DNA of 57,536 bases from NCBI GenBank assembly GCA_017623675.1, contig JAGAOO010000070.1:1-57536 (forward strand), in the 5' to 3' direction. Within the stretch, counting starts at the first letter, position 1. Each line of letters starts with the position of its first letter. The notes under the pieces were generated by a model. That model saw nothing but the letters and a program-made list of their open reading frames with translations, was not told where the DNA came from and did no database searches. The position numbers were made by a program, and so were the translations under genes. Origin of the DNA: Lachnospiraceae bacterium (GTDB lineage: Bacteria; Bacillota; Clostridia; Lachnospirales; Lachnospiraceae). Positions 10,024 through 35,049 of this stretch are shown one piece after another.

Positions 10024-10064
10024 ATATTAATTATATGCTGTGCATATAAGAGGAGGACTGTGCA

Positions 10065-13058: not shown

Positions 13059-13221
13059 ATGTCACGTTTAGGTAATTATCAGGTTGAAGGGAAATGGTTT
13101 ATATTATTTTTTTGATTTGTGATGAAGATAAGTCTTCTTAATTACAATAAACAAACCTCTGCTCTCTGATAAGCGAATCATTTTGCAACACATATAACAT
13201 TTAGAATGAGGGTGATGCGTA

Positions 13222-13974: not shown

Positions 13975-13984
13975 GGAGTTAATA

Positions 13985-14755: not shown

Positions 14756-14790
14756 TTGACACTAATACTTAATGTAATGGAGAAAAAAGT

Positions 14791-15963: not shown

Positions 15964-17216
15964 TGAATAGAATGATAGCTGTTCTTTCTGAGCATGATGC
16001 ACACGATCAAATGAATTCAAAAAATAAGATGACTCAAAAAGAGATAATAGTATTGTGTTGTCTGATTGTTTTATCATTAGAATATGTTTTGCATTATTAC
16101 ATTGACTTGGGTATTCTTCCTAAAATGCTAATCTATGTTAATACTTTTGCAGCTGTTATTATGCCGGTTTATTCTTTTTTTGTAAAAAGAAAAAATCTGA
16201 AATTTTCAGCATATTCGACTGTCCTATTATGTTATTTTATTGCAATGTTAGGCTATACAGTAGTATTGATGAAATATAGCGGAAGAATGTCTAGGGATGT
16301 AGTTTGCATTACCATCTATTTGCAAATTTTAAGTGCAATATTGTTACAGGATTTGAAATTGGAATATTTGAACAGATTTTTTAAAATTCTGGGGTGCTTA
16401 TCTATTATTGGATTCATATATTGTTTTTTCAGTTTCAATATAGATATAGAGGTAGCAATTAATAGAGGATATCAATATGAAGAGATTTTTTATTATGCTG
16501 CTTTATTTTGGTCAGCTGTTCCGTTCGTTTTAATTGCTTTTATAAAGAAAAAGAATTATTTTTTACCAATTGCATGTTTAGCTCTAGAAGTTATTATCAA
16601 TTTGATTATTGTTAAAAGAATGATATTAGTACAAGTGCTTGTACTATCTATTGTGCTAATTGTAGCTTTAGTTTTGGATAAACGAGCCAAGGGAAAAGGA
16701 AAGAATATTATAAAAATAGTTTGTGCAATAGGTATTGCTTTGTTGCTGATGAGATGCTTCATGTGGGATACAATAGTTAAACTTTTTGAAAGCATTTTGG
16801 AAAGAACAAAAGATGTAACTGAAAATCTAAGTAACTTTAATAGATTTGTCGAAAGTAAGAATTATTATAAAGATGCTACGTTGTTACAGATTATTTTTGG
16901 AAAGGGGTTTGGTGGAACTCATAAAGGATTAGGGACAGTTTCGGAGGCACTGCATGTGGGATGGGCTAATTTAGGATTAAAAGGCGGCTTGATTCTAATT
17001 GCGTTAGTAATTATTCCTTATGTAAAGATGTTAGTAATAGCAGGTAAATATCGAAATTTTCCAGATGAAATAAAATTTTCCTTTTTATATTTACTGTATA
17101 TGGGCCCAATGCTTTTTTTAATTAATATGCACAGTTTTAATCCACAAATGTTTTTGTTTTTTTATTGTTGTATAAAAATTATGAATTATAGGTATTCTGC
17201 ATTAAATAATCTATAA
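15963..17216 (+). CDS. Wzy-type polysaccharide polymerase (membrane)
   Basis: 417 residues, hydrophobic over most of its length with about ten predicted membrane spans. A large polar loop lies in the second half, near residues 270-320 (LERTKDVTENLSNFNRFVESKN, then GKGFGGTHKG), as is usual for Wzy and O-antigen ligase-type proteins. It should join lipid-linked repeat units on the outer face of the membrane. The family is diverse, so the call rests on topology and neighbours. Confidence 0.78.
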   Translation: MNRMIAVLSEHDAHDQMNSKNKMTQKEIIVLCCLIVLSLEYVLHYYIDLGILPKMLIYVNTFAAVIMPVYSFFVKRKNLKFSAYSTVLLCYFIAMLGYTVVLMKYSGRMSRDVVCITIYLQILSAILLQDLKLEYLNRFFKILGCLSIIGFIYCFFSFNIDIEVAINRGYQYEEIFYYAALFWSAVPFVLIAFIKKKNYFLPIACLALEVIINLIIVKRMILVQVLVLSIVLIVALVLDKRAKGKGKNIIKIVCAIGIALLLMRCFMWDTIVKLFESILERTKDVTENLSNFNRFVESKNYYKDATLLQIIFGKGFGGTHKGLGTVSEALHVGWANLGLKGGLILIALVIIPYVKMLVIAGKYRNFPDEIKFSFLYLLYMGPMLFLINMHSFNPQMFLFFYCCIKIMNYRYSALNNL

Positions 17217-17274
17217 CTTAAGTAGACTTATAAAAAATATTAGGTATGCACTAGATGATAATGGAGACATGATC

Positions 17275-20638: not shown

Positions 20639-22047
20639 ATAATAAGCTAAAGATAATAGTCAAAGACATATTTCGGTATGCTTATAATAAATTACCAATG
20701 AATATTAGAACATCTTCATTGTATAGAAAGACATATGAAGAAACATATAATTTTTTAGAGGAATCTGAGTATTGGTCAAAAGAAAAGATGCAAAAATATC
20801 AAAATGAAAAATTGCATGATTTGATTTTGTACGCCTATAATAATGTTCCATATTATAAAAAATTATTTGATGATTTGGCTATTGATCCGGATTCTATAAC
20901 GGATACTGAAAGTCTAAAAAAAGTTCCATATCTGACTAAAGATATAATCAAAGAAGAAGGAGAACGGATGCTTTCTACTGCCGTGCACAAAAATAAAAGA
21001 ATACGGCATGAAACAGGTGGATCATCAGGAAAACCTATCTCCATATGGTATGAGAAGGATATAGTAAAAGCGAAAGAAGATGCGTTTGTTGCAAGAATAT
21101 GGGGCAGAATAGGGTATAATGATACGGATAGAATTGCGATATTCAGAGATATTAATTTCATTAGAGAAATGGAGATGGTAGATAAGAATATTGTATACAA
21201 GAGAATGCCAGGTACAAATAAGTTTTATTTTTCTTTTGGTAATTTAAGGAAAGAAACCATTCAAAAATATAGAGAGGCTATCATTAAGATAAAACCGCAG
21301 TGGATAATTGCATATCCAGCAAGTTTATACTATTTAGTGCAATTACTGGATGTTAACATGGAGTCACCATTTGATTCGTTGAAAGGTATAATTTTTATGT
21401 CAGAGACATTATATCCTCATCAAATCAAGGTGTTTAAAAAATTTTTCAATGTTAAAATGTTACATGCGTATGGACACACTGAAAAAGCTTGCTTGGCTGG
21501 AACGTGTGAAGAGTCAATGCGTTTTCATATACAGCCTGAATATGGAATTGCAGAGTTTATTGAAAATGACGGAATGATGGAATTAGTCGCTACAGGATTT
21601 ATTAATAATTGCATGCCATTGATAAGATATAAAACACAAGATTTATTTGTTTTGTCGAGTGAAAAATGTTCTTGTGGCAGGGAACATCAGCTGATTGAAT
21701 CAATAGAAGGAAGAACTGGCGATAGAATATATTTGAGCGATGGTAGTATCGTGACAGATACATATTGCGATTTTGCTATAAGCCAATCAATATGGCAGAG
21801 CAAAGTGGAGCAGTTTCAAGTAAGACAAGACAAAGTAGGATTTTGTGAGATATGGTATATTCCACTAAGTGATAAAGAGGATATTCACAAATTAGAGGCA
21901 GAAATAAAATCCGATTGTGAAAACTATTTATACAATAAAATAATTGTTACACCTAAAAAAGTAGATAATATACCAAGAACGATAAGAGGAAAACAGAAGC
22001 TTATTGTATCAGCTATAGGGTGTGATAAAGAAAGTAAAACTAATTAG
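20635..22047 (+). CDS. CapK/PaaK-like adenylate-forming enzyme
   Basis: 470 residues with GGAGGAAAC before the start; ATGA overlap with the previous gene. Phenylacetate-CoA ligase-like fold: YNNVPYYKKLFD near residue 70, the AMP-binding loop HETGGSSGKPISIWYE near 123, LHAYGHTEKACLAGTC near 277, and the R-Y-K-T-x-D motif near 330. Members in capsule clusters (CapK) are thought to activate an acid that decorates the glycan. No partner acyltransferase is obvious apart from the GNAT and hexapeptide proteins downstream. Confidence 0.88.
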   Translation: MNNKLKIIVKDIFRYAYNKLPMNIRTSSLYRKTYEETYNFLEESEYWSKEKMQKYQNEKLHDLILYAYNNVPYYKKLFDDLAIDPDSITDTESLKKVPYLTKDIIKEEGERMLSTAVHKNKRIRHETGGSSGKPISIWYEKDIVKAKEDAFVARIWGRIGYNDTDRIAIFRDINFIREMEMVDKNIVYKRMPGTNKFYFSFGNLRKETIQKYREAIIKIKPQWIIAYPASLYYLVQLLDVNMESPFDSLKGIIFMSETLYPHQIKVFKKFFNVKMLHAYGHTEKACLAGTCEESMRFHIQPEYGIAEFIENDGMMELVATGFINNCMPLIRYKTQDLFVLSSEKCSCGREHQLIESIEGRTGDRIYLSDGSIVTDTYCDFAISQSIWQSKVEQFQVRQDKVGFCEIWYIPLSDKEDIHKLEAEIKSDCENYLYNKIIVTPKKVDNIPRTIRGKQKLIVSAIGCDKESKTN

Positions 22048-22056
22048 AATGAGGTG

Positions 22057-23529
22057 ATGGAGAAATTGCTAGAAAAATGTAACGCAATATTAAAAGAGAT
22101 CAAAGCAAATAAATTTTTTGCAAATTCAATATTATATATAGCTGCTTCGTTTCTAATAAAAGGAATATCTTTTTTGACAACACCTATATTTACACGACTA
22201 ATGGGAACTGCTGATTATGGAATTGTATCTAATTTTACAATGTGGGCAAATTTTTTTGCAGTTTTTATCTGCCTGCAGATGACGGCAGGTATTGTGGCCG
22301 CAAAAGTTACACGTTCAGTTGAGGAATTAGATGTCTATGTTGCAAGAATTACAAGGATGTGCATTGCTTTTGCATTAGTGATAGGCTGTTTCATATTTTT
22401 GTTTAGAAATTTCATTTCAAATATAACAGAAATAGATAGTATATATTTATTGCCGATGCTTATAGTAGCATATGGACATTCTGCAATTAATTTATATTCT
22501 AGCTATTGTATCGCACAAGAAAGGCCTAAAGCTAAGGTTAAATTTTCAACAATAAATTCATTATTTATTACTTTGTGTGGTGTAATGATGGTTTTATTTT
22601 TCGCTGACAAGAGCCAAGGAAGAATAATTGGTTTTGTAGTGGCGTATGGTCTTGTTGCATTATATGTTTCAGTGCGTTTTGCTTTTATAAAAACTAAAGG
22701 TGTTGGTTCAGGGAAAAAGGATGTTATGTATGCACTGACATTTGGAATTCCACTTATACCGCATCTTTTAGCTAACATGGTTAATGGAAATGCCGATAGA
22801 GTATTTATTATTAAGTTGTTTGGTGAGAATGAAGCAGGTATATATAGTGTTGCATATAGCATAGGAGCAATTGCACTTACATTTGCAGATGCATGTACAG
22901 ATGCATGGACTCCATGGTATTTTAGTGAGACAAAATGCAAAAACAAAGAACAAGTTAATCGTTATTTAAAGTTTTATTCTTTTACTATTGCAATGTGCTT
23001 TTTTGGAGTAATGATGCTAGCTCCAGAAATTATGAAAATAATGGCCGATGAAACGTATTATACCGGTATGCCATGTATAAAATATGTTGCTTTAGGAATA
23101 TGTTTTTTGTTTTTATATAGATTTCCATTATGTTATGAGCAGTATAATGGAAATACGAAATTTGTTGCACCTGCAACAGTGATTTGTGCAGCGATTAATA
23201 TAATATTAAATTCAATATTTGTACCGAAATATGGAATAGAAGGAGCTGCATTTACAACATTGTTATCGTATATTATATTATGGATATTGCATGAAATTGT
23301 TGTAAGGTTTATTATTAAGAATTATAATATTGATTTTAAAAGCTATTTGCCGGCTATAGTAATTTCATGTATCGGATTTGTTTTATCAGATATGTTGTCA
23401 GAAAAGTTTTTTCTTAGATATTTTATTATTGCAATATTTTGTATAAGTTATCTTTTTTATGCGGGTAATATACTAAAATATAAGAAGAAAAACAGTGTTA
23501 AGAGGAATGATGATTATGATAAAAGATAA
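22057..23529 (+). CDS. Wzx-type repeat-unit flippase
   Basis: About 490 residues with some twelve hydrophobic segments; GTG 22054 is an alternative start one codon earlier. Features typical of the polysaccharide transporter family are LYIAASFLIKGISFLTTPIFTRLMG at the N-terminus, ADRVFIIKLFGENEAGIYSVAYSIG in the middle and YGIEGAAFTTLLSYIILW near the end. It moves undecaprenyl-linked repeats across the membrane before Wzy acts. Confidence 0.9.
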   Translation: MEKLLEKCNAILKEIKANKFFANSILYIAASFLIKGISFLTTPIFTRLMGTADYGIVSNFTMWANFFAVFICLQMTAGIVAAKVTRSVEELDVYVARITRMCIAFALVIGCFIFLFRNFISNITEIDSIYLLPMLIVAYGHSAINLYSSYCIAQERPKAKVKFSTINSLFITLCGVMMVLFFADKSQGRIIGFVVAYGLVALYVSVRFAFIKTKGVGSGKKDVMYALTFGIPLIPHLLANMVNGNADRVFIIKLFGENEAGIYSVAYSIGAIALTFADACTDAWTPWYFSETKCKNKEQVNRYLKFYSFTIAMCFFGVMMLAPEIMKIMADETYYTGMPCIKYVALGICFLFLYRFPLCYEQYNGNTKFVAPATVICAAINIILNSIFVPKYGIEGAAFTTLLSYIILWILHEIVVRFIIKNYNIDFKSYLPAIVISCIGFVLSDMLSEKFFLRYFIIAIFCISYLFYAGNILKYKKKNSVKRNDDYDKR

Positions 23530-24067
23530 AAAAGAATTGAAAAGATACTTAGAAGCCGATAAAAAAGCACTCAAAAAAATGTATAACCATCCTAGAGTGT
23601 TTGGGGATGAAGAATGGAAATATGAGATTTGTCTACGCAAGTATGAGTATTATTATAATACTAAATCAAATAAGATAATGTATGCGTGGTATAAGTGGCT
23701 ACATCATAGATTAGGGATGAAATATTCATTTTCTATTCCTGCAAATGTATTTGGAGCTGGTTTAAGAATTAATCATATTTGCGGTGGAATAATTATCAAT
23801 CCAAATTGTAAAATTGGGGATTGGTGTGACATTCATCAGGGAGTAAATATAGGACAAAGTATTGATGGAAAATGTCCGGAAATTGGTTCTAATGTATATA
23901 TTGGTCCTGGAGCAAAGATATTTGGAAATATATGCATTGCTGATGATGTGATGATTGGAGCGAATGCAGTAGTGACTAAATCTATTTATGAGAAAGGAGC
24001 TGTCGTGGGAGGAGTTCCGGCAAAGCTTATTTCTGTCAATGAGAAAAATCCTTTGCATAGGGAGTAA
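23516..24067 (+). CDS. Serine acetyltransferase-like hexapeptide acetyltransferase
   Basis: About 183 residues. The start at 23516 is chosen because AAGAGG lies ten bases upstream; earlier in-frame ATGs overlap that site. The left-handed beta-helix region starts at IPANVFGAGLRINHICGGIIINPN and shows the CysE-like GDWCDIHQGVNIG and VIGANAVVTKSI motifs. In glycan loci such proteins O-acetylate sugars rather than serine. The start overlaps the flippase end. Confidence 0.82.
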   Translation: MIKDKKELKRYLEADKKALKKMYNHPRVFGDEEWKYEICLRKYEYYYNTKSNKIMYAWYKWLHHRLGMKYSFSIPANVFGAGLRINHICGGIIINPNCKIGDWCDIHQGVNIGQSIDGKCPEIGSNVYIGPGAKIFGNICIADDVMIGANAVVTKSIYEKGAVVGGVPAKLISVNEKNPLHRE

Positions 24068-24168
24068 TAGTAATGATTATTTCGGTTGTCTACATACTGA
24101 AGTAAAAAACAAAATTATATAAAAGAAAGGAAATACGATTTTATTTAGAATTGTATGAGGTAGAAAAG

Positions 24169-25389
24169 ATGATTAATGTAGTAGGATTAGGTTATATCGG
24201 TTTACCAACAGCGCTTATGCTTGCGTCTCATGGTGTTGAAGTAATTGGTACGGATTATAACAAGGAGGTAGTAAAAACTCTTAATGAAGGTAAAACAACT
24301 TTTAAAGAAAAAGGGTTAGATGAATTATTTGCTGAAGCTGTAAAATCTGGAATTAAATTTACAACAGAATATCAAGTAACAGATACCTATATTGTGTCAG
24401 TTCCAACGCCGTATGATAAATTTAGCAAGAAAGTGGATGCAGGATATGTTGTTGCAGCAGTGAAAACAATAATGGGAGTATGTCCAAAAGGTGCAACTGT
24501 AGTTGTTGAATCTACGGTTTCTCCTGGTACAATTGATAAGTTTATACGACCAGTTATTGAAGAAAATGGGTTTAAAATTGGTGAAGATATTAATTTGGTT
24601 CATGCTCCGGAACGTATTATTCCAGGAAATATGGTATATGAACTTTTACATAATAATAGAACGATTGGTGCTGATAGTAAAGAAATAGGAGAAAAAATCA
24701 AAAAGATATATGCATCTTTTTGCCAAGGTGATATTATTGTGACAGATATAAGAACAGCGGAAATGACAAAGGTAGTTGAAAATACATTCAGAGCTGTAAA
24801 TATTGCATTTGCAAATGAACTGGCGAAAATTTGTCGTCACGATAATATGGATGTTTATGAAATTATAAAGATATGTAATATGCATCCAAGGGTAAATATT
24901 TTACAACCTGGACCAGGTGTTGGTGGGCATTGCATTTCTGTAGACCCATGGTTCCTTGTTGGGGATTATCCTAGCCTTGCAAAAGTAATTGATGAGTCCA
25001 TGAAAACAAATGATGGCATGCCAGATTTTGTGCTTAATAGGATTTATGAGATTATGAAAGAAAATAATATTCATGACTTTTCTAAAGTGGGACTATATGG
25101 ATTGTCATATAAGGAGAATGTTGATGATCCACGAGAATCTCCGACAATTCAACTTTTAGAGAGTCAAGAACGTCATTTAGCAGAGCCATTGAAAACATAT
25201 GATCCTTATTTTGAAAAGGATTTGGTCCCTAATCAATATCATGACTTTGATAAATTTTTAGAAGATACAGAATTGGTTGTAATCATGGTAAATCACGATC
25301 ATATTAAAGAAAATATGAGTAAATTAGAAGGGAAAATTGTATTTGATACTCGGAAATGCTGTGATTTGCCAGGCACTTATAGATTGTAA
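24169..25389 (+). CDS. wecC: UDP-N-acetyl-D-mannosamine dehydrogenase
   Basis: 406 residues from ATG 24169 (GAGGTAG upstream). The NAD Rossmann motif is VVGLGYIGLPTALML, followed by VESTVSPGT. The catalytic cysteine is in GPGVGGHCISVDPWF near residue 254, and the C-terminal domain includes LYGLSYKENVDDPRESP. It oxidises UDP-ManNAc to UDP-ManNAcA, pairing with the epimerase encoded next. The GGHCISVDPWF variant is characteristic of WecC rather than UDP-glucose dehydrogenase. Confidence 0.93.
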   Translation: MINVVGLGYIGLPTALMLASHGVEVIGTDYNKEVVKTLNEGKTTFKEKGLDELFAEAVKSGIKFTTEYQVTDTYIVSVPTPYDKFSKKVDAGYVVAAVKTIMGVCPKGATVVVESTVSPGTIDKFIRPVIEENGFKIGEDINLVHAPERIIPGNMVYELLHNNRTIGADSKEIGEKIKKIYASFCQGDIIVTDIRTAEMTKVVENTFRAVNIAFANELAKICRHDNMDVYEIIKICNMHPRVNILQPGPGVGGHCISVDPWFLVGDYPSLAKVIDESMKTNDGMPDFVLNRIYEIMKENNIHDFSKVGLYGLSYKENVDDPRESPTIQLLESQERHLAEPLKTYDPYFEKDLVPNQYHDFDKFLEDTELVVIMVNHDHIKENMSKLEGKIVFDTRKCCDLPGTYRL

Positions 25390-25408
25390 GTAAGAGGTAG
25401 GTGGTAAA

Positions 25409-26500
25409 ATGAAAAAAGTAATGCTTGTGTTTGGTACTCGTCCAGAAGCGATAAAAATGTGTCCGTTGGTAAAAGAATTAAAAAAAAGAGAATCACTCAA
25501 TACTGTTGTTTGTGTGACAGGACAGCATCGACAGATGTTAGATCAAGTGCTTAATGCATTTGAAGTAATCCCAGATTATGACCTGTCAATTATGAAGGAC
25601 AAGCAGACCTTATTCGATGTGACAACGAATATTTTAACAAAAATTAAGCAAGTGCTAGAAAAAGAAATGCCAGATGTTGTCTTGGTTCATGGAGACACTT
25701 CTACAACTTTTGTTACAGCATTAGCCTGTTTTTATATGCAAATACCAGTAGGTCATGTTGAAGCAGGATTGAGAACGTATAATATATATAGTCCATATCC
25801 AGAGGAGTTCAATAGACAAGCAGTATCAATAATTTCTTCGTATAATTTTGCGCCAACAGAATTGTCTAAGGAGAATTTATTAAAGGAAGGAAAGAATCCT
25901 GCTACTATTTTTGTTACTGGAAACACTGCAATAGATGCATTAAAAACAACTGTTAAAGAGAATTATGTTCATCCTGAATTGGAATGGGCAAAAGATAGCC
26001 GATTAATTATGATAACAGCACATAGACGAGAAAATCTAGGAGCTCCAATGCATAATATGTTTCGTGCTATTCGACGTGTGATGGACGAGCATTCAGACGT
26101 AAAGGCTATATATCCAATACATATGAATCCAGTAGTTAGACAAGCTGCAGATGAAGAATTAGGAGATTGTGAACGAATTAGGATTATTGAACCCTTAGAA
26201 GTATTAGACTTTCATAATTTCTTAGCTAGGAGTTACTTGATTTTGACTGATAGTGGTGGGATACAAGAGGAAGCTCCATCTTTAGGAAAACCTGTTCTTG
26301 TAATGCGTGATACTACTGAGAGACCAGAAGGTATACAGGCGGGTACGTTAAAACTTGTTGGAACCGAGGAGGAATCAATTTATAGTAGTTTTAAGCTTTT
26401 ATTAGAAGACAGTCAAGAGTATGAAAAAATGTCTAAAGCAAGCAATCCGTATGGTGATGGAAATGCATCTAAACGAATAGCTGATATTTTAGAAAAATAA
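25409..26500 (+). CDS. wecB: UDP-N-acetylglucosamine 2-epimerase (non-hydrolysing)
   Basis: 363 residues, the usual length. Motifs are VFGTRPEAIKMCPLV at the N-terminus, VHGDTSTTF near 94, GHVEAGLRTYNIYSPYPEE near 113, TAHRRENLGAPM near 205, and LTDSGGIQEEAPSLGKPVLVMRDTTERPEG near 280. It interconverts UDP-GlcNAc and UDP-ManNAc in the cytoplasm and feeds WecC. A hairpin follows the stop codon. Confidence 0.95.
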   Translation: MKKVMLVFGTRPEAIKMCPLVKELKKRESLNTVVCVTGQHRQMLDQVLNAFEVIPDYDLSIMKDKQTLFDVTTNILTKIKQVLEKEMPDVVLVHGDTSTTFVTALACFYMQIPVGHVEAGLRTYNIYSPYPEEFNRQAVSIISSYNFAPTELSKENLLKEGKNPATIFVTGNTAIDALKTTVKENYVHPELEWAKDSRLIMITAHRRENLGAPMHNMFRAIRRVMDEHSDVKAIYPIHMNPVVRQAADEELGDCERIRIIEPLEVLDFHNFLARSYLILTDSGGIQEEAPSLGKPVLVMRDTTERPEGIQAGTLKLVGTEEESIYSSFKLLLEDSQEYEKMSKASNPYGDGNASKRIADILEK

Positions 26501-26507
26501 AGAATAA

Positions 26508-26553
26508 ACACATCATATTTGCACTATATGCAGTGAGAGCAAATATGATGTGT
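26508..26553 (+). other. Fifteen-bp perfect hairpin between wecB and the nonulosonate module
   Basis: ACACATCATATTTGC at 26508-26522 pairs fully with 26539-26553 across a 16-base loop. No T-run follows, so it is not a standard terminator. It may be an RNA processing or stability element, an attenuator, or a scar of cassette joining. Confidence 0.7.
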
Positions 26554-26566
26554 TAAGAGGGCAGAT

Positions 26567-27538
26567 ATGGATATACTTATTTGGACCATGGGTGGCCATG
26601 ATATAGGAATGGGGCATATTTTTAGGCAGATTAATTTGTTTCATAAATTGAGTAAAATATACCAAGTTTGTTTTGCTATTAATGATGATCTTGAAACAAA
26701 AGAATTACTAAAGTTTAATGAAATCCCGTATGTAGTGTATAATGAGTTTAATGATGTGTTAGCTTATCTTAAAAATAATAAACCAAAATTATTAGTGATA
26801 GATAGATTAGACACTGATAGTAAGGAAATTGTCATAATAAAAAAATACATAGACACGGTAATTTCTTTTGATGATAGAGGAAGTGGTGTTTCGAATGTAG
26901 ATGTTGTAATTAATGCAATCGTACCATCTTTGCCAGAAACCAAAAAACTATTAAAAGGTCATGAATATATGATATTCACAAAAAATGTTGAAAATAGGGC
27001 AAAAATGAAAAAGTTAATAAATGATAGAATAGAAAAAGTATTAGTAACATTTGGCGGTTCAGATCCTAAAGAATACACTTTAAAATTAGAATTCCTTTTT
27101 AGCAAATATCCTAGTGTTCAGTTTTTTGTGGTTATCGGTCCAAACTATCAAAATAAAGAGAAAATAAAATCTTTTGGACAGATGTACAAGAATGTGCAGG
27201 TGTTAGAAAATTGTAATGATTTATCTGAATATTTATATTCGGCAGATATAGCGCTAATATCTGGGGGAATTACTTTATTTGAAGCAGCATATATAGGAAC
27301 ACCATGCATTGTATTATGTCAAGTAGAGCATCAGAATATAACGGCAAAAAAATTTTTTGATGAGGGTGCATGTGAATTTATAAATTGTGCTGAAACAGAG
27401 TTGGAAGAAGCAGTTGTTAAATTATTTAATAAAATAAAGAAACAAGAAGTAAGATTACAAATGAGTAATTTGCAGAAAAAGTATGTTTCTGTCAATGGTA
27501 TTGAAAATGTATTGAATGTTATTAAACAATTGCTATAG
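26567..27538 (+). CDS. PseG/SpsG-like nucleotide-sugar hydrolase or transferase
   Basis: 323 residues, GT-B-like MurG-related fold. The N-terminal MGGHDIGMGHIFRQINL matches the PseG G-x-G-H-x-x-R pattern; LVIDRLDTDSKE and VISFDDRGSG follow. The C-terminal lobe has VLVTFGGSDPKEYTLK and ALISGGITLFEAAYIGTPCIVL. PseG removes UDP from 6-deoxy-di-N-acetyl sugars before condensation with PEP; SpsG is its spore-coat homologue. Next to SpsF- and SpsE/NeuB-like genes, it fits a nonulosonic-acid precursor step. Confidence 0.82.
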   Translation: MDILIWTMGGHDIGMGHIFRQINLFHKLSKIYQVCFAINDDLETKELLKFNEIPYVVYNEFNDVLAYLKNNKPKLLVIDRLDTDSKEIVIIKKYIDTVISFDDRGSGVSNVDVVINAIVPSLPETKKLLKGHEYMIFTKNVENRAKMKKLINDRIEKVLVTFGGSDPKEYTLKLEFLFSKYPSVQFFVVIGPNYQNKEKIKSFGQMYKNVQVLENCNDLSEYLYSADIALISGGITLFEAAYIGTPCIVLCQVEHQNITAKKFFDEGACEFINCAETELEEAVVKLFNKIKKQEVRLQMSNLQKKYVSVNGIENVLNVIKQLL

Positions 27539-27551
27539 GAGGCAGATGAGA

Positions 27552-28289
27552 ATGGAAAATAATAATTTAGATGAAATACATGAATTAGAGTGGGATACAG
27601 ATTTTTTTGGAATAGATTCATATAAATGTACAATTTCAGAGATCGAGCAATTGGAGAAAATCGTTGACTTCGTAAATGATAAAGATAGATTATTTTTTAC
27701 GGTTATTAATCAAGATAATCAAAATTGTATTAACTATAAAATTCCTCAATTATTAGGAAAATATTCTTTTCTAGCAGATATAAATATGAATTTGAAAAAA
27801 AATATTGAAAAACACAACTTGAATTTAAGAGATGATATAACTATTGAAATAACAAATAACCTTGAGCCTAATGAACAAGTAGTTAGTTTGGCTCAAAATT
27901 TTAAGTACTCCCGTTTCTTTAATGATGAGCGACTGGGAGAACAGCGATTTAAACTTTATCATAATTGGATTGCTAATGCATTTCGTAAAGAAGATAAATA
28001 TTATGTATTAGCAAAGGTTGATGAAAAAATTGTTGGGTTTATTTTGTTTTCGCACAATGGTAATGAGTCGGTTACAATTGAGCTAACAGTTGTAAACAAA
28101 AATTATCAAAGTAAGGGAATTGGTAATTATATGTTTACTGCTTTAGATAATTATTTGAACGGTAAAGGTGTCCCTATTGTGTATGTTGGAACGCAAGTTT
28201 CTAATATAGCAGCGATAAATTTTTATTTTAAGCAAGGGTTTAAGATTAATAAGATTAATAGTATTTATCATATTGTAAAGAAAGGATAA
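27552..28289 (+). CDS. GNAT-family N-acetyltransferase (PseH/WecD-like)
   Basis: About 245 residues; ATG 27552 is preferred to 27546 because AGGAGG then has 9-base spacing. The C-terminal GNAT core reads VGFILFSHNGNESVTIELTV, then the acetyl-CoA loop YQSKGIGNYMFTAL, then VPIVYVGTQVSNIAAINFYFKQGFK. The N-terminal half, with ELEWDTDFFGIDSYK, resembles WecD/dTDP-fucosamine acetyltransferase proteins. It probably N-acetylates an amino sugar in the nonulosonate pathway. Confidence 0.82.
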   Translation: MENNNLDEIHELEWDTDFFGIDSYKCTISEIEQLEKIVDFVNDKDRLFFTVINQDNQNCINYKIPQLLGKYSFLADINMNLKKNIEKHNLNLRDDITIEITNNLEPNEQVVSLAQNFKYSRFFNDERLGEQRFKLYHNWIANAFRKEDKYYVLAKVDEKIVGFILFSHNGNESVTIELTVVNKNYQSKGIGNYMFTALDNYLNGKGVPIVYVGTQVSNIAAINFYFKQGFKINKINSIYHIVKKG

Positions 28290-28293
28290 ATCA

Positions 28294-29022
28294 ATGAAAA
28301 CACATATAGTTATTCAGGCAAGAATGGGTTCCACTAGGTTACCAGGTAAAATATTAAAACCATTATGTGGACTTCCTATGTTGGAGCAGATTGTAGAACG
28401 TGCTAAGAAATGTAATAATGTTGATGAAGTTATTGTAGCAACTTCGGATTCCTTGGCAGATGATGTTGTACAAGAATTTTGTGAAATAAGAAATTATAAG
28501 TATTTTAGAGGTAGTGAAAAAGATGTGTTAGATCGTTTTTACAAATGTACAACAGAATATAAATCGGAATTGATAATTAGAATGACAGCTGATAATGCTT
28601 TGTTTGATCCGAGTATTATTGACGAAGGTATAGAATATTATATGTCAAACTCTTATGATTATGTTTATTATGCGCAAGGTATGCCGTTAGGCACGGCTAT
28701 AGAACTATTTAGTTATGAGGCATTAAGTAGCGCTTGGCGAGAAGCTGTGGATGATGAATGTAGAGAGCATGTTACACTATTTATGTATCGATCCGGAAAT
28801 AAATTTAAGTGGAATAAACCGCAGTCAGGTAAGTACAACCATGAGAATATTCGGCTAACCACAGATACAGAAGAAGATTACAGGTTGGTAAAAGAAATAT
28901 ATGAAGCTCTTTATCCAATAAATTCAGATTTTACGCTGGATGATGTCTTACAGTATATATCTGATAATCCAACCGTTTTGGAGAGTAATAAACATGTAAA
29001 GCAAAAAGTAACAAATTATTAA
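28294..29022 (+). CDS. SpsF/NeuA-like cytidylyltransferase family protein
   Basis: 242 residues. The nucleotidyltransferase signature is IVIQARMGSTRLPGKILKPL at the N-terminus, followed by VIVATSDSLADD, RGSEKDVLDRFY and RMTADNALFDPSII. This is the SpsF pattern of Bacillus spore-coat glycan clusters and of other nonulosonate loci. It likely activates the nonulosonic acid as a CMP sugar, though SpsF members are biochemically less well defined than NeuA or PseF. Confidence 0.85.
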   Translation: MKTHIVIQARMGSTRLPGKILKPLCGLPMLEQIVERAKKCNNVDEVIVATSDSLADDVVQEFCEIRNYKYFRGSEKDVLDRFYKCTTEYKSELIIRMTADNALFDPSIIDEGIEYYMSNSYDYVYYAQGMPLGTAIELFSYEALSSAWREAVDDECREHVTLFMYRSGNKFKWNKPQSGKYNHENIRLTTDTEEDYRLVKEIYEALYPINSDFTLDDVLQYISDNPTVLESNKHVKQKVTNY

Positions 29023-29037
29023 GTGGAGAATTTAATT

Positions 29038-30147
29038 ATGAAAGAACTAATTATTGGTGGTAAAAAAGTTTCAAATAACAGTAGAACACTTATTATAGCT
29101 GAAGCAGGAATAAATCATGATGGGAAATATGATCAGGCACTTCAATTAATAGATGTAGCAGTCGCCGCAAAGGCTGATATTGTTAAGTTTCAGTTATTTA
29201 GGGCAGATAAAATGTATACACCTAATGCGGGAGATTATACAACTGCTGCAGGTCAGGTAAAGCCAATTAATGAGATATTAAAAGGTACTGAATTGCCATA
29301 TGAATGGATTCCCAAGCTTATGCAGTATTGTGATTCTAAAGGAATTGGTTTTTTATGTACCGTTTGCGACGAAGATGGAGCGGATATATTAAATAATCAA
29401 AATGTTGATTCATTTAAGATGGCTTCATATGCAATTACTCATATTCCTTTGTTAAAACATGTTGCTAAATATAAAAAACCAGTTATTTTTTCATCAGCAG
29501 GTGCATACTTGTCGGATGTAGATATCGCAATTCGTGCTATAAGTGAAGTAGGAAATGATAAGATTGGATTAATGCATTGTGTTGCAAAGTATCCAACACC
29601 GTTAAGTGAGTGTAATTTACGCATAATTCAAATGTATAAGCAAGCTTTTCCAAATGTAATTATTGGTTATTCGGATCATACAGAAGATCCGGTTGCAGCA
29701 CCTGTGACTGCGGTGGCGTTAGGAGCCAAAATTATCGAAAAGCATTTTACTATTGACAAAAATTTACCAGGAGCAGATCATTCCTTTGCTGTTAATCCTG
29801 AACAGTTAGCCGAAATGTGTTTAGCAATAAGAAAAGTAGAAAATATGTCTGATGATGAAAAACAACAATTTATTCATCAAGAAACATTAGGAACTTCACA
29901 AAAGATGGTAATTGAAGTAGAAGAAAATTTGAGAAAATATGCGTATAGATGTGTTTTCGCAACTGAAGATTTGCGCGCAGGAGATGTAATTAGTACACAA
30001 AATACAGCTATTTTAAGACCAGGAAATGAAAGTAGAGGTATTGAACCTATACATTATGAAATGTTATTAAATAATCATGTAAGGGTTGTTAAGGCTGTAA
30101 AAAAGGGATGTTCCATTAAATGGGAAGATATCCTAACAATGGATTAA
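29038..30147 (+). CDS. NeuB/PseI/SpsE-family nonulosonic acid synthase
   Basis: 369 residues from ATG 29038 (GGAGAA upstream; GTG 29023 rejected). The TIM-barrel domain starts IIAEAGINHDGKYDQALQLID and has ADIVKFQLF, KMASYAITHIPLL, HCVAKYPTP, IGYSDHTEDP and EKHFTIDKNLPGADHSFA. Residues from about 300 form the antifreeze-like SAF domain (FATEDLRAGDVIS). It condenses PEP with a six-carbon amino sugar to give a sialic-acid-like nine-carbon sugar. Whether it makes pseudaminic, legionaminic or another acid cannot be told from sequence. Confidence 0.92.
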   Translation: MKELIIGGKKVSNNSRTLIIAEAGINHDGKYDQALQLIDVAVAAKADIVKFQLFRADKMYTPNAGDYTTAAGQVKPINEILKGTELPYEWIPKLMQYCDSKGIGFLCTVCDEDGADILNNQNVDSFKMASYAITHIPLLKHVAKYKKPVIFSSAGAYLSDVDIAIRAISEVGNDKIGLMHCVAKYPTPLSECNLRIIQMYKQAFPNVIIGYSDHTEDPVAAPVTAVALGAKIIEKHFTIDKNLPGADHSFAVNPEQLAEMCLAIRKVENMSDDEKQQFIHQETLGTSQKMVIEVEENLRKYAYRCVFATEDLRAGDVISTQNTAILRPGNESRGIEPIHYEMLLNNHVRVVKAVKKGCSIKWEDILTMD

Positions 30148-30211
30148 AAATAATTAGTATGATGTAATAAAGCATAAAAACACAAATAGTTGAGTAAAGG
30201 AGAGTAAACGA

Positions 30212-31459
30212 ATGTCCAACTACAAAATCGCAGTTGCCGGCACCGGTTACGTCGGTCTTTCCATTGCTACCTTGTTGGCTCAGCATAATCAGGTTATGGC
30301 TGTGGATATTGTACCGGAAAAAGTAGAGTTAATAAACAATAAGAAATCACCGATTCAGGATGATTATATTGAAGAATATTTGGCCACCAAGGATTTAAAT
30401 CTGGTAGCAACCTTAGATGCGAAGGAAGCTTACACAGATGCCGATTTCGTTGTGATTGCGGCTCCTACCAACTACGACAGTGCGAAGAATTATTTCGACA
30501 CTTCTGCAGTAGAAGCGGTTATCAAGCTGGTTATGGAGTATAATCCAGATGCTATCATGGTAATCAAGTCTACCATTCCGGTGGGGTATACCGAGAGCAT
30601 CCGTAAGAAGACCGGCTGCAAGAACATTCTGTTCAGTCCGGAGTTCCTGCGTGAGAGCAAGGCACTGTACGACAACCTGTATCCGTCCCGTATTATTGTG
30701 GGTACCGACCTTAACGATGAGCGGCTGGTAAAGGCTGCACATATTTTTGCAGAGCTTCTGCAACAGGGTGCTATCAAACAAGACATCGACACATTGTTTA
30801 TGGGATTTACCGAGGCGGAAGCAGTAAAACTGTTTGCAAATACATACCTGGCGCTTCGTGTCAGCTTTTTCAATGAGTTGGACACCTATGCTGAGATGAA
30901 GGGACTTAATACTCGCCAGATTATCGCCGGTGTGGGTCTTGACCCGCGTATTGGCAGCCATTACAACAATCCTTCTTTTGGTTACGGTGGCTACTGTCTG
31001 CCCAAGGACACCAAGCAACTGCTTGCCAACTACGAGAACGTGCCACAGAACATGATTGGTGCCATCGTAGAGTCCAACCGCACCCGTAAGGATTTTATTG
31101 CTGACCGTATTCTTCAAAAGGCTGGTGCGTACTCCTATGAGGGTGCCAACGCTTATGATGCAGCGTTGGAGAAGCCGGTTATCGTGGGTGTTTTTCGTCT
31201 TACCATGAAGGCAAACTCGGATAACTTCCGTCAGTCCTCCATTCAGGGCGTCATGAAGCGCATCAAGGCCAAGGGCGCAGAGGTTATTATTTATGAGCCG
31301 ACCCTGGAGAATGGAACCACTTTCTTCGGCTCCCTTGTGGTCAACGATTTAGCGGAGTTCAAGCACCGTTCCGATGTTATCGTGGCAAATCGTTACGAGG
31401 ATATTCTGGCGGATGTAGAAGAAAAGGTTTACACCAGAGACTTATTCAGAAGAGATTAG
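30212..31459 (+). CDS. ugd: UDP-glucose 6-dehydrogenase
   Basis: 415 residues, AAAGGAGAGTAAACG upstream. Rossmann motif [50 protein letters not shown], catalytic cysteine in [14 protein letters not shown], and a shorter C-terminal domain. It makes UDP-glucuronate. Codon use turns visibly more GC-rich here than in the upstream operon, so this gene and the next belong to an older or different segment. Confidence 0.94.
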
Positions 31460-31594
31460 TATATAGGTAATAGTTGGTTTAATGAACAGAGCAAATAGTA
31501 AGGATATAATGAGCTTTACTAGGAATAAATGTAATATTGTGATGGTAATTTACTAACTGATGCGTAATCTATGGATTTTATTCGGAGGGAAAAA

Positions 31595-33463
31595 ATGTTG
31601 AGATGGATAAAAGAAAAAGAAAATATTTTTCAGCAACTTTTCTTTATTATGTTAGATGGAATATCAGTTTTTGTAGCATCTATCATGGCGTTATGGATCC
31701 GCTTTGATTTTTCCATCACAAAAATAGACAAGATTTATTTGGATAATGTATGGCGTACTATGCCGCTAAACATAATTATGGTGCTGGCAGTATACTGGCT
31801 GTTCCGTTTATACCGCAGTGTATGGAAGTATGCCAGCTGGTATGAACTGCAACGTATTATTCTGGCAGGTGTTACCGCAACCTTAATCCAGCTGCTGGGT
31901 CTTACTCTGGCAGATATCAAAATGCCGCGCAGCTACTGGTTTTTATATGCCGGAATTTTAGTCGGAGCAACGGTTTGTACCCGTTTTGCATACCGCATTC
32001 TGCGCCGTATTAAGAGCAAGTGGGACGATAAAAAGCGCGGAGACCTTTCACGCGTTATGATTGTAGGTGCCGGTTCCGCCGCAGATTTATTAATCCGCGA
32101 AATTAAGACAAGCCAGTACTTACATAAGGAAATCGGCTGTATCATCGACGACAATCCGGAATTAAAGGGCAAGAGCATCAGCGGCTTCCCGATTGTCGGC
32201 GGAAGAAATTCCATCATTGAGGCTGCCAGCCGTTACAACATCGACGAAATTATCATTGCCATGCCATCGGTTTCCCGTAAAGAAACTGCAGAAATTGCTA
32301 CCATCTGCAACCAGACCGGCTGCGAAATCAAAATGGTGCCGGGCATGTACCAGTTTGTAAATAACGAGCTCCGCGTCAGCAAGCTCCGTCATGTAGAAAT
32401 TGAAGACTTACTCGGCAGAGAGCCGGTTAAGGTAGACATGAAAAAGGTTACTGCCTTTGTAAAGAACCAGACCGTTTTAGTTACCGGCGGTGGCGGAAGC
32501 ATCGGCAGCGAGCTTTGCCGTCAGATTGCGGCAGCAGGTCCCAAAAAACTGATTATTGTAGATATTTATGAAAACAACGCTTATGAAATCCAGCAGGAAT
32601 TAAAGCGTAAGTATCCAAAACTGAACCTGATTGTATTAATTGCTTCGGTTCGTAACACTAACCGTATTAACAAAATTTTTGAAACCTACCTGCCAAATAT
32701 TGTGTTCCATGCAGCGGCACACAAGCATGTTCCTTTAATGGAAGACAGCCCGAACGAGGCAATCAAGAACAACGTATTCGGAACACTCAAAACCGTGCAG
32801 GCAGCCGACAAATACGGCGTAGAGCGTTTTGTTCTCATTTCCACCGACAAGGCGGTAAACCCAACCAATATCATGGGTGCCAGCAAGCGTATCTGCGAAA
32901 TGATTGTACAGGCCTACAGCCGCCGCTCCAAAACACAGTTTGTGGCGGTGCGTTTTGGTAACGTGCTCGGCAGCAACGGCAGTGTAATTCCGCTGTTCAA
33001 AAAGCAGATTAAAGAGGGCGGTCCGGTAACCGTAACCCATCCGGACATCATCCGTTACTTCATGACCATTCCGGAAGCGGTTTCCCTGGTACTCGAAGCA
33101 GGCGCGTTTGCAGAGGGCGGAGAAATCTTCGTTCTGGATATGGGTGAACCGGTAAAGATTGTGGACCTCGCCAAGAACTTAATCCGTCTTTCCGGTTATG
33201 TACCAAATGAAGACATTATGATTGAATATACCGGCTTAAGACCGGGCGAAAAGCTTTACGAAGAGCGCCTGATGGAAGAGGAAGGCTTAAAAACCACCGA
33301 AAACAACCGTATTTCCGTGGCACGTCCGATCGAAATGGACGATATTGCATTCTTTGATGCCCTGATGGAATTAAAGGATGCCGTATATGATGAAACCGGA
33401 AGCGTTAGGGAAATGGTAAAGGATATTGTACCAACCTATAAAATTCCGTTCGGGAAGAAATGA
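31595..33463 (+). CDS. CapD/PglF/WbpM-type UDP-N-acetylglucosamine 4,6-dehydratase, membrane-bound
   Basis: 622 residues from ATG 31595 (CGGAGGG upstream). Four N-terminal membrane segments (to about 140) are followed by a CoA-binding-like Rossmann region (MIVGAGSAADLLIREI) and the catalytic short-chain dehydratase domain with TGGGGSIGSELCRQ near 298 and the SDR motif ISTDKAVNPTNIMGASK. The usual S-Y-K triad is altered to S-M-x3-K (NIMGASK), which is known for this long-chain branch. It supplies a UDP-4-keto-6-deoxy sugar, substrate for the DegT aminotransferase. Low AT bias links it with ugd. Confidence 0.93.
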   Translation: MLRWIKEKENIFQQLFFIMLDGISVFVASIMALWIRFDFSITKIDKIYLDNVWRTMPLNIIMVLAVYWLFRLYRSVWKYASWYELQRIILAGVTATLIQLLGLTLADIKMPRSYWFLYAGILVGATVCTRFAYRILRRIKSKWDDKKRGDLSRVMIVGAGSAADLLIREIKTSQYLHKEIGCIIDDNPELKGKSISGFPIVGGRNSIIEAASRYNIDEIIIAMPSVSRKETAEIATICNQTGCEIKMVPGMYQFVNNELRVSKLRHVEIEDLLGREPVKVDMKKVTAFVKNQTVLVTGGGGSIGSELCRQIAAAGPKKLIIVDIYENNAYEIQQELKRKYPKLNLIVLIASVRNTNRINKIFETYLPNIVFHAAAHKHVPLMEDSPNEAIKNNVFGTLKTVQAADKYGVERFVLISTDKAVNPTNIMGASKRICEMIVQAYSRRSKTQFVAVRFGNVLGSNGSVIPLFKKQIKEGGPVTVTHPDIIRYFMTIPEAVSLVLEAGAFAEGGEIFVLDMGEPVKIVDLAKNLIRLSGYVPNEDIMIEYTGLRPGEKLYEERLMEEEGLKTTENNRISVARPIEMDDIAFFDALMELKDAVYDETGSVREMVKDIVPTYKIPFGKK

Positions 33464-33625
33464 ATATAAGATGAATGAAAGTTAGTGTATATATCATTTT
33501 TGCAGTTAGATATTATAGGAGTTATGCAATAATGAAGAATACTAAACAAGGAGCAAGTATTTATTTTAATAACTTCCCATATCTTTATCCCTGCCTTTCG
33601 GTAGAAAAAGGTGATATGGAACCTG

Positions 33626-33658
33626 ATGGCCTGCGACATATAGAAGCAGGCCATTTTT
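33626..33658 (+). terminator. Terminator-like hairpin after the polysaccharide operon
   Basis: ATGGCCTGC (33626-33634) pairs perfectly with GCAGGCCAT (33646-33654), followed by TTTTT on the plus strand. It can end the capD-side transcript. The same DNA read leftward is part of the hairpin run behind the dead TnpB gene. Confidence 0.75.
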
Positions 33659-33712
33659 ACTGTTTCCAGTAATGTATGAAGAAGCCCGAAGGCTAACTTC
33701 CGGAAGTGGTCT
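33626..33712 (-). ncRNA. Candidate omega-RNA-like structured RNA downstream of the dead TnpB gene
   Basis: Read on the minus strand right after the TnpB-like stop there are four stem-loops in about 85 bases: palindrome ACTTCCGGAAGT (33707-33696), AGCC-TTCG-GGCT (33694-33683, a canonical cUUCGg tetraloop), TTACTG-GAAA-CAGTAA (33672-33657, GNRA-type loop) and a 9-bp stem with 11-base loop (33654-33626). In TnpB elements the guide RNA scaffold is encoded at the 3' end of tnpB and downstream, exactly this position. The 3' end and guide are unknown. After the last stem the minus strand reads CAGGTTCCATATCACC and then TTTTT. Alternative: unrelated terminators. Confidence 0.5.
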
Positions 33713-33713
33713 G

Positions 33714-34985
33714 TTATTTGCTCATGGTACTTAAAAAGTTTTTGGCAACATTCATGGCAGAATTGAAATAAGAATTACCTTTGTGGTCATTAGGGCAGAT
33801 GAAGTTTTTGCCACCGTAAAAATTGATGCCGGGTTTGTGATTCTTATTGTATTTTTTTAGTTTGCCGCCACACTTATAGCAGCAGGATGCAATATCCTTG
33901 GTGCTTGCTGTGGCAGTAACAATACCTGCAGCAAATGATTTATACTTTACATAGGAGATAATTCTGCGTCCAATCCAGTCGTAACTGGAACTAGGAACAT
34001 ATCCTACGGTGTTAAAGTTCATGGACTGTATATAATTAGGTGCAACAATGATGCTGACCTCATTTTCTATGCAGAAATCAATTATTTCTTTGCTTGCCTT
34101 GTGGGCTGCATTATCCGTGATATGATGTATCTTCTCACGGATGGCTTTGTTATCATCAGCAGGAATTGAACCATGAGATTCTATCCATTCTTCTTTGGCA
34201 CCTTTGCCATATCCCATGCTTTTTCTGTTTTTCTCTATACGGTCGAGAAGTGTCTGCTTTCGATGGGCTAATTCGTCTCCGCCTCCGATAAATTTGCTCT
34301 TGATAAAGTTTCCTTCCGCATCCACAATAACCATGGCTGCCAGGGTATCACTGTTAGGACAATAAATAGCACAGAGCTTTTCTTTGTTTGCCAGACGTTC
34401 TTTTGCCGGTCGCACATCATCCACATCCTGCTTTACTGGAATATGAAGCATGGCCCTGTCTTTTTCAAGTACAATGATTGGGGACATAATCCGGTCAGCC
34501 TCCGGCATGGTTCTGCCACAGGTATCAATTTCGCAGTGCTGCCAGATCCATTTTGCGCCATTGTAGAGTTTTAAGTTAATGGAGGTAGAAGTAAACTCTT
34601 TATACATACCCTTATAGTAGATAGGGGAGGCATCAAAGTTTAAAGCTTCTTTGGTACCGCTGTCTTCACCGGAGCGGAAACTGCCCTGGAGCCGTATGGC
34701 ATCATTGATGGCAGCTCTGCGGAAATACAGGGGTACTTTCTCAAAAGGAAAAGGATATTTGGTGTCATCGCTGGATTCCCCTCTGGAACCGATAGTCAGA
34801 AGCTCCAGTTCACGCATCATCTGAAGCTTTGGTACATTCCAGATAGCCGGTTCTTTACGGATAACATCATAGTAAAATTTCAGTACCCGGTTGTACATGA
34901 GCTTTGTTTCACGAAGCAGCTGCATATTGTCGCAGTACAAGCGGAAGCGGTATGTAGTTGTACAAAATCCGGGTTTCTTATTCAT
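33714..34985 (-). CDS. Nuclease-dead TnpB-family protein (TldR-like candidate)
   Basis: 423 residues, TnpB length. The N-terminal YRFRLYCDNMQLLRETKLMYNRVL and SPIIVLEKDRAMLHIPV are the WED-type parts; RuvC and a zinc ribbon (CYKCG at 369-373, then CPNDH at 397-401) follow. All three RuvC acids are replaced by eye alignment: motif I GIDLG is AIYCP (D to Y208), motif II VIEDL is IVAPN (E to A315), motif III DVNAAxNI is YFNSAMNV (D to Y406). The rest is well kept, so this is not random decay. Known dead TnpBs (TldRs) are RNA-guided repressors. It sits 67 bases behind an unknown gene, probably in one operon. No TnpA or transposon ends are visible. Confidence 0.8.
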   Translation of the reverse strand: MNKKPGFCTTTYRFRLYCDNMQLLRETKLMYNRVLKFYYDVIRKEPAIWNVPKLQMMRELELLTIGSRGESSDDTKYPFPFEKVPLYFRRAAINDAIRLQGSFRSGEDSGTKEALNFDASPIYYKGMYKEFTSTSINLKLYNGAKWIWQHCEIDTCGRTMPEADRIMSPIIVLEKDRAMLHIPVKQDVDDVRPAKERLANKEKLCAIYCPNSDTLAAMVIVDAEGNFIKSKFIGGGDELAHRKQTLLDRIEKNRKSMGYGKGAKEEWIESHGSIPADDNKAIREKIHHITDNAAHKASKEIIDFCIENEVSIIVAPNYIQSMNFNTVGYVPSSSYDWIGRRIISYVKYKSFAAGIVTATASTKDIASCCYKCGGKLKKYNKNHKPGINFYGGKNFICPNDHKGNSYFNSAMNVAKNFLSTMSK

Positions 34986-35020: not shown

Positions 35021-35049
35021 ATTTTACATGACGAAATTTGATGCGTCAA
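35021..35049 (-). promoter_or_regulatory. Possible promoter ahead of the dead TnpB gene
   Basis: On the minus strand TTGACG (35049-35044) is followed after 17 bases by TAAAAT (35026-35021). It would allow the TnpB-like gene its own transcript besides read-through from the partner gene. Confidence 0.5.

Follow-up and report, generated by a model that had tools for sequence, protein, structure and literature searches.

A nuclease-dead TnpB and its RNA in front of polysaccharide operons of gut Firmicutes: probably a dedicated RNA-carrying switch for sugar-coat clusters

Introduction

What can a TnpB be for, once it has lost the acids of its RuvC nuclease? The question is raised by a stretch of 57,536 nucleotides from a Lachnospiraceae bacterium (the window, by which we mean that whole stretch), in which the gene for such a protein stands at the end of a polysaccharide locus, and which an original prediction, made from the letters of the sequence, had taken for a candidate RNA-guided repressor. 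The natural reference is the dead TnpBs named TldRs, which have been tied to oligopeptide uptake. Flagellin is the other function with which they have been connected until now, and it is established that in TnpB as in TldR the guide follows the scaffold (for TldR, see the accessible part of PMC13418256). Inactivation of RuvC is described as a repeated event in type V systems in the available portion of the updated CRISPR classification (PMC12669027). In the open-licence literature, a scope that lies apart from the founding TldR paper, we found no paper pairing TnpB with capsular polysaccharide and a guide RNA, or TldR with polysaccharide. With a dead clade placed before the polysaccharide operons of gut Firmicutes, RNA-directed regulation would come to include the coats of the cell surface, and these coats govern the encounters of the cell with phages and with the immune system. 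We shall argue, from comparison of sequences, that sugar-coat clusters probably have in the TnpB-RNA pair a switch of their own, one that carries an RNA.

A TnpB fold deprived of its catalytic acids

33714..34985, minus strand: nuclease-dead TnpB/Cas12f-type protein, 423 aa, with Y208, P316 and Y406 at the RuvC positions and a zinc finger made of C369/C372/C397/H401
35021..35049, minus strand: possible tnpB promoter, TTGACG-17-TAAAAT; a scan found such sites no commoner than in shuffles

Alignment of the window protein with an intact relative (L031) places Tyr208 at the first catalytic aspartate, Pro316 at the glutamate and Tyr406 at the third acid. No RuvC acid is left in 33714-34985 (minus strand), as had been predicted, and the two tyrosines are those named at the outset; the glutamate site had been placed one residue early, at A315, while the facing of ..VIVFEHL in L031 with ..IIVAPNY in the window protein gives position 316, a proline in all 29 members of the clade described below. 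In the predicted structure residue 208 ends the strand 204-208, residue 316 ends the strand 312-316 and residue 406 starts the last helix, 405-422. The predicted fold is that of Cas12f and TnpB, and this structural check, proposed with the original prediction, did not refute a dead site. Structure comparison gives AsCas12f as the closest solved fold; the Cas12f proteins are CRISPR effectors, from which the dead clade differs by its lack of RuvC acids.

One domain, the Cas12f1-like TNB, is all that Pfam gives for the protein up to E 1. The protein belongs to the TnpB superfamily, as TldRs do. Against NF040570, the model of active TnpB, it scores 46.9 bits for a curated cut-off of 100 and, the RuvC triad being absent, it is not an active TnpB. 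That the first zinc knuckle had been kept was rightly seen and understated: C369, C372, C397 and H401 are all invariant in the first alignment of 11 members, together with the pair R89-R90 (L069, a later addition, has N at the H401 position).

A sparse clade of single origin

A scan of a contig collection recovered three loci: L001, which is the same sequence as the window, in a Lachnospiraceae MAG obtained from the rectum of a water deer (100% identical, it is excluded from all counts); L002, the nearest relative, with a protein about 53-54% identical to the window TnpB; and L003, in Eubacterium callanderi FD, at 36% identity. Strong matches (E < 1e-50) were present in 5 of 392 genomes of the order, and any match at 0.001 in 15; among 397 genomes of the family 11 matched at 1e-20, nine with the dead clade and two (G535, G693) with intact relatives; among 391 genomes of the class four matched at 1e-15, two dead, one intact and one a fragment, the dead carriers being the window's own genome and G1084 (four copies). 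Eight genomes (G173, G269, G364, G404, G589, G715, G716, G1084) hold three to four copies each. The distribution of the clade is sparse, with at most four copies per genome, and extends over Lachnospiraceae and Eubacterium, which supports the expected placement in Firmicutes. Phages gave no homologue, plasmids only weak matches to records annotated TnpB or transposase, and viral contigs none by a search with the single protein and one intact relative (L031) by a search with an alignment.

The loss of the acids is common to the whole clade. Asp1 is missing in 29 of 29 members, Glu is replaced by Pro in 29 of 29, and Asp3 is missing in all 28 that can be read (in L062 an in-frame stop precedes the site), whereas relatives outside the clade keep Asp1 in 12/12, Glu in 9/9 and Asp3 in 9/9 readable cases. 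In a tree of 28 dead and nine intact proteins (L062, with its stop, and the partial L010, L022 and L027 were left out) the dead ones stand on one side of a branch supported at 100/99, recovered in all of 200 bootstrap trees. The ratio dN/dS is 0.08-0.17 in six of the eight pairs tried and saturated in the other two, one of which is the window with L002. Tree and ratios show a single origin and purifying selection. Common to a monophyletic and selected clade, the loss of RuvC is no effect of chance or decay; the view that this was loss with retention, and not decay, withstood comparison with homologues, where the change is clade-wide and not scattered. TldRs, too, have lost their RuvC acids at the level of a clade.

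One might nevertheless take the gene for a neutral relic heading for loss, and single copies of dead tnpB do decay: L062 (6769-8001) carries a single in-frame stop, and in L072 (7362-7739) and L009 (1501-1827) the gene is reduced to fragments, the latter still carrying its RNA. This reading is contradicted already by the dN/dS values, by the invariant residues and by the covarying RNA presented in the next section, and we find it scarcely credible.

An RNA paired with the gene

33566..33713, minus strand: RNA region in full, between the tnpB stop and a point slightly beyond the end of the scaffold; it folds at -50.9 kcal/mol, shuffles at -31.9 (z = -5.4)
33569..33623, minus strand: omegaRNA-like RNA core, GGNN-[6 nt]-CRCC ... 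[6 nt]-NRAGNTAT; model R1, this copy being among those it was made from, scores it at 45.2 bits
33614..33619, minus strand: CCATAT, 5' arm of the covarying 6-bp closing helix
33577..33582, minus strand: ATATGG, 3' arm of the closing helix

The same core, or a close variant of it, lies 3' of tnpB in 27 of the 27 loci that were found through tnpB and have their 3' side covered (a first set of 21, then L104, L105 and L132-L135). It lies 48-171 nt past the tnpB stop in the first 21 loci and up to 189 nt in the later ones; the C-terminal gene fragment L009 is also followed by it, at 60 bits. In the first 21 loci the closing helix forms 125 of 126 possible pairs, with two to four pair types per position, while arms cross-paired between loci form 69% and slid arms 25-71 of 126. 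When two helices are counted, 95.2% of 207 cells are paired, ten of ten pairs show changes on both sides, and the covariation score is 0.834; shuffles give 68.7% and 0.310, with 0 of 500 reaching as high, and sliding gives 26-50%. The RNA ends of the first 21 loci were picked by eye from the motif, which makes the helix count partly circular, but this is answered by the slid and shuffled controls and by the blind matches of a covariance model. RNAalifold, applied to a first loose alignment, gave only eight pairs; the closing helix was spotted by eye and then counted. Rfam holds no known family for this RNA, its one match being at chance level.

Run on 13 genomes, the covariance model returned known loci together with L098-L102. 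Directly upstream of four of these blind matches lies a dead TnpB (L099, 7.5e-132; L100, 9.6e-125; L101, 1.7e-149; L102, 4.7e-159), and the fifth, L098, sits at a contig edge beyond which tnpB itself would fall. The weakest match, G000:C48, in the window's own genome (25.7 bits), has no dead TnpB and was rejected as a false positive. The first-look filter of that search missed the window, L001, L002, L056 and L062, which score 39.5-48 bits when measured directly, so that the absence of the RNA elsewhere is a soft result. With strict filters, all 12 RNA matches in 299 genomes of the family fell in five genomes known to carry the protein (the window copy was missed again). Adding L009 and the five loci found through their RNA to the 27, a scaffold-like RNA follows the gene directly on its 3' side, as it does in TldRs.

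The dead clade shares a homologous protein with the TnpB of IS200/IS605 elements, which come with an omegaRNA (L136, L138-L140 and L031 here). Unlike it, these intact relatives keep Asp, Glu and Asp, and in L136-L140 (four intact relatives and a fragment) the best that the RNA model could reach was E 0.066, at a site away from the gene; downstream of L136 and L139 the hairpin end, read by eye, is different. L138 and L139 are away from polysaccharide genes, and L136 stands about 2.3 kb before such genes.

At the front of polysaccharide operons

9343..33463, plus strand: polysaccharide locus (PglD, DegT, sugar transferase, GT2, flippase, epimerase, GT, cytidylyltransferase, NeuB, PglF and unknowns)
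31571..33463, plus strand: gene for polysaccharide biosynthesis, of the PglF/FlaA1 type, convergent with tnpB

That the gene sits at the end of a polysaccharide locus had been noted from the window, and the link proves much stronger than could be seen there: a polysaccharide operon lies downstream and in the same direction in 27 of 32 dead-TnpB loci (the fragments L009, L053 and L072 are not among the 32). Twenty-three of the 27 were counted by an above-cut-off Pfam match in the first listed gene, L058 because its DNA is homologous to that of L054 (82.5% over 4973 nt), and three by later genes of the same run (L057 and L059 by clustering of open reading frames, L099 by a below-cut-off match and reading by eye). 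L105 is followed by a phosphoglucomutase gene; in L070 the tnpB-RNA unit is divergent from a glycosyltransferase operon; the contigs of L061 and L064 end too early for a downstream operon to be judged, L064 showing an epimerase-like partial frame at the contig end, 1.7 kb off. In many loci about 14-90 nt separate the RNA from the first gene listed; in L055, L056 and L071 the first listed frame of the operon lies about 830, 540 and 790 nt off. In the leaders of L133 and L135 a second hairpin-like stretch was noticed by eye between the RNA and the first gene, before the start codon (GGAACGCTG...CAGCGTTCC in L133). In genome G404 (L065, L066, L104) some stretches lying upstream of tnpB recur elsewhere in its polysaccharide loci.

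The window copy is atypical in this family. In L002 the PglF gene lies 251 nt past the tnpB stop, co-directional with it; in the window it is 250 nt from the TnpB gene but reads toward it. We understand the window copy as a rearranged member, its RNA intact, facing away from its own polysaccharide locus.

UpxY, like LoaP, is a NusG paralogue of the kind that heads operons for polysaccharides or antibiotics. The dead clade resembles LoaP in position and as a presumed operon-specific factor making use of an RNA element of the leader (for LoaP, see the accessible part of PMC12691694). It differs from both in belonging to an unrelated protein family, the window protein showing no NusG-like identity (Pfam to E 1, and a Cas12f fold). 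This likeness introduces what we rank as the main alternative in the discussion of mechanism: the dead TnpB would bind the nascent leader RNA and ride RNA polymerase through the long operon in the manner of LoaP or UpxY, with no targeting of DNA. The first-gene position before polysaccharide operons, with the RNA in the presumed leader, is what such a factor would display, and LoaP antitermination needs a leader hairpin, according to the available text of PMC12691694. Yet the short distance from RNA to first gene leaves, in many loci, little room for a leader terminator, the residues presumed to bind a target (R89 R90, the TNB zinc finger) have been kept, and the window and L070 have preserved their RNA although it leads into no operon of the same direction. 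We consider this alternative possible, if unlikely.

A guide position filled by the operon

33553..33568, minus strand: segment at the guide position, the first 16 nt after ...GAAGTTAT; its only match in its own genome with 0-1 mismatch is itself

If the RNA is read as a TnpB scaffold, the sequence that follows it would stand where a guide is expected. For the most part this sequence is rich in A, and several loci have it passing directly into the region where the first gene of the operon starts. Genome-wide searches covered five of 31 segments (window, L060, L061, L105, L132): the own locus was the only perfect match, and there was no convincing target in trans for these five, in a search that took no TAM as fixed and that guides of 6 nt would escape. 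Near matches, set against a reversed-pattern control, numbered 9 v 8 for the window (all nine non-self matches having two mismatches), 4 v 4 for L132, 11 v 5 for L061, 41 v 29 for L105 and, for L060, 6 v 1 (G269) and 4 v 4 (G173); the excess in three of the searches is small, and it counts against the reading that we favour below. Sites with one mismatch exist for L060 only, three in G269 and G173 taken together; two of them were examined and stand, as read by eye, among housekeeping genes; L061, L105 and L132 have no non-self match with 0-1 mismatch. Comparison of loci of the same genome with the segments gave A-rich matches only, 14-16 of 18. The scaffold ends in G-N-T-N-T in 31 loci (GTTAT 16, GTTTT 7, GGTAT 3, GTTGT 3, GATAT 2), a count that is not independent, the ends having been found by eye or with a pattern requiring the motif (L104 was missed by the pattern). 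GTTAT is what we take to be a known TAM of TldRs. None of the 32 matches listed, out of 75 non-self ones, has G-N-T-N-T before it.

These data bear on the view that we are dealing with ordinary TldRs acting in trans, the short guide directing the protein to promoters or genes elsewhere, for example those of competing polysaccharide operons, so that the cell would wear one coat only. The parts are the same, a dead TnpB and a scaffold RNA behind its gene; several copies stand in one genome, each at its own operon, and near matches exceed the reversed control for three of the five segments. The accessible part of PMC13418256 describes TldRs that repress a competing flagellin, puts the length of a sufficient guide at 6 nt, and gives four loci with predicted cross-targeting for a strain of Oscillibacter. 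The searches just described run against this view, from the window's nine non-self matches for eight in the control to the housekeeping surroundings of the L060 sites and the missing motif, and so does the fact that the segment goes with the operon and not with the RNA. We rank it third and regard it as improbable, without being far-fetched.

This last fact needs to be set out. Alignments of paralogues stop 0-9 nt from the RNA end in several pairs. In L061 and L105 the cores are 95% identical and the next 20 nt agree at 5/20, whereas in L003 and L134, both heading an operon of an epimerase and a UDP-sugar dehydrogenase, the cores are 60% identical and the next 20 nt agree at 20/20. Because identities of core and flank disagree in this way, it seems that tnpB-RNA modules have been exchanged and that the sequence at the guide position was kept by the operon; the 3' border of the module is the RNA end, the guide position being filled by the operon's own leader. 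In L003, L132, L134, L135 and L101 (genomes G715 and G1084), the tnpB phylogeny and the identity of the operon disagree, and modules appear to have been exchanged there.

Such a border, like the right end of a transposon, also evokes an IS200/IS605-type element still mobile, or recently so, with an inactive TnpB, the link with polysaccharides reflecting a preference of insertion. The patchy distribution, with modules at different operons, would agree with this; a Y1-transposase-like frame lies just upstream of the intact L136, L139 and L140 (read by eye), and what L136 precedes, at about 2.3 kb, are DegT- and UDP-sugar-dehydrogenase-like frames (also by eye). Beside dead members, however, a Y1-like frame was read by eye only at L057, with another TnpB-like frame upstream, and the neighbours of the window copy include none, again by eye. 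In 27 loci the module is turned the same way with respect to the operon, and the RNA has been kept over an old divergence (in the first alignment, dead members are 33-54% identical to the window protein). A mobile element appears to us very improbable.

Candidate invertible promoters

Inverted repeats of 20-52 nt, spaced by 86-342 nt (60-450 allowed), were found upstream of dead tnpB in 16 of 26 cases, against 6 of 219 control frames. The controls are mechanical open reading frames of at least 200 aa from the same loci, some of which are not genes, and two of the six control matches, those in L055 and L056, fall in the stretch that separates RNA and operon; the count left out L069, whose upstream is short, and L071, L098, L100, L104 and L105, which have no upstream sequence. 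Such repeats are typical of invertible promoters. Opposite orientations were seen in none of the strain pairs compared, and inversion itself is presumed. The closest described parallel is that of the csrA-linked TldRs, which adjoin hin and invertible DNA (in the part accessible of PMC13418256). A preprint on Eggerthella links megabase inversions, LoaP and capsule loci, and the available portion of its text makes no mention of TnpB (PMC13174815). Should the present association hold, RNA-directed regulation and promoter inversion would be joined in one switch.

The window has no upstream repeats in the allowed range and nothing convincing over its whole length. A pair at 33548-33568 and 35814-35834 (21 nt, 81%) flanks the RNA, tnpB and a 216-aa frame, next to a recombinase; it was rejected, the value of 17/21 being reached by 9 of 60 shuffles, and also because inversion would not put the RNA before the polysaccharide genes.

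Several neighbouring observations deserve record. In L070, inverted repeats of 35 nt, whose positions counted from the start of tnpB are -69 and +1548, surround the whole tnpB-RNA unit, and its inversion would make it face the glycosyltransferase operon in the usual order. L056 has a second inverted repeat, of 22 nt with a gap of 89 nt, at +1607/+1718 from the start of the frame; it comes after the RNA and before the operon's first gene. In L063 a tyrosine-recombinase-like frame (4575-5597), a candidate invertase, lies upstream of a dead tnpB with promoter-flanking repeats of 26 nt. The motif TGGTCA occurs 47 times in 26 upstream regions of 450 nt, for 3.4 expected from first-order shuffles (at most 8 in 200 of them); there are three to four copies in each of 13 loci, one in L003 and none in 12, over two bacterial families (L054-L056, L058-L060, L064, L003, L101, L102, L132-L135). 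These may be operators or arm sites of a recombinase.

A probable switch acting on the linked operon

What sequence comparison provides is a dead site of single origin under purifying selection, a structured RNA and a position at the front of operons, often behind candidate invertible promoters. The explanation that we favour, and consider rather likely, is that a domesticated dead TnpB would form with its own RNA a ribonucleoprotein particle (RNP), the dedicated regulator of the linked polysaccharide operon. The protein would bind the omegaRNA-like RNA encoded directly behind its gene, as suggested by covariation and by the strict pairing of gene and RNA; the RNP would bind nucleic acid, because the Cas12f fold, R89-R90 and the zinc finger are kept, with roles presumed from relatives; and it would alter transcription of the polysaccharide operon behind the RNA, in view of its position before operons. 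The effect would be exerted in cis, on the linked operon, which is probable because the sequence at the guide position stays with the operon when modules are exchanged and because there is no other good match in the five cases searched. Two modes, which we rate about equal, may be envisaged: a roadblock on DNA or occlusion of the promoter by self-targeting, or control of elongation by the tethered RNP. Against this dedicated regulator stand the window and L070, whose RNA has no co-directional operon behind it, and L055, L056 and L071, where the first frame of the operon is far from the RNA; the intact RNA of the window and L070 would in turn indicate that the RNP is selected as such, and not as a mere leader element.

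A more specific form of the first mode is a self-targeting RNA-guided switch, in which the scaffold end, G-N-T-N-T, would itself serve as target-adjacent motif. The RNP would then always recognise the leader DNA from which its RNA was copied, and a module moved before any polysaccharide operon would be programmed at once, with no evolution of a guide; a phase-variable coat would in this way come under control by feedback or by a bistable state. This could be possible because the nuclease is dead; an active TnpB would cut its own locus. We hold this proposal to be rather doubtful; if true, it would represent the use of an RNA guide without any evolved guide.

With the fliC- and csrA-linked TldRs the dead clade shares the TnpB fold, the loss of the RuvC acids, a scaffold RNA 3' of the gene and domestication beside surface-structure genes. 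It departs from them in heading polysaccharide operons, in having no guide target in trans in the five cases searched, in a guide-position sequence that goes with the operon, and in its occurrence in Lachnospiraceae and Eubacterium. It may be said to work like a TldR by parts, three of five defining features being found, and we do not call it a member.

Surroundings of the window copy

The two other neighbours noted in the original prediction, an unknown gene and an integrase, have not turned out to be partners. The 216-aa frame (35053-35703) has no homologue among the frames of other loci, apart from the identical sequence of L001, and was dropped as a part of the system. The tyrosine recombinase (35871-36449) was dropped likewise: recombinase-like frames stand beside only L063, where the homologue is weak (25% identity to that of the window, E 1.6e-5), and L059, whose unrelated-looking neighbour, a Pfam Phage_integrase, is on the other strand. 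Around the polysaccharide locus (1523-9222 and 38837-55172) the window carries genes of the kind found in mobile elements: two serine recombinases, a helicase with seven HA repeats, HTH_16, an ImpB-type polymerase, ParB, a RecD2-like helicase and a YqaJ recombinase. At 36472-37662 a DUF3791 protein matches the PADLOC model PDC-M13A (E 9.7e-8) and is a candidate component of defence.
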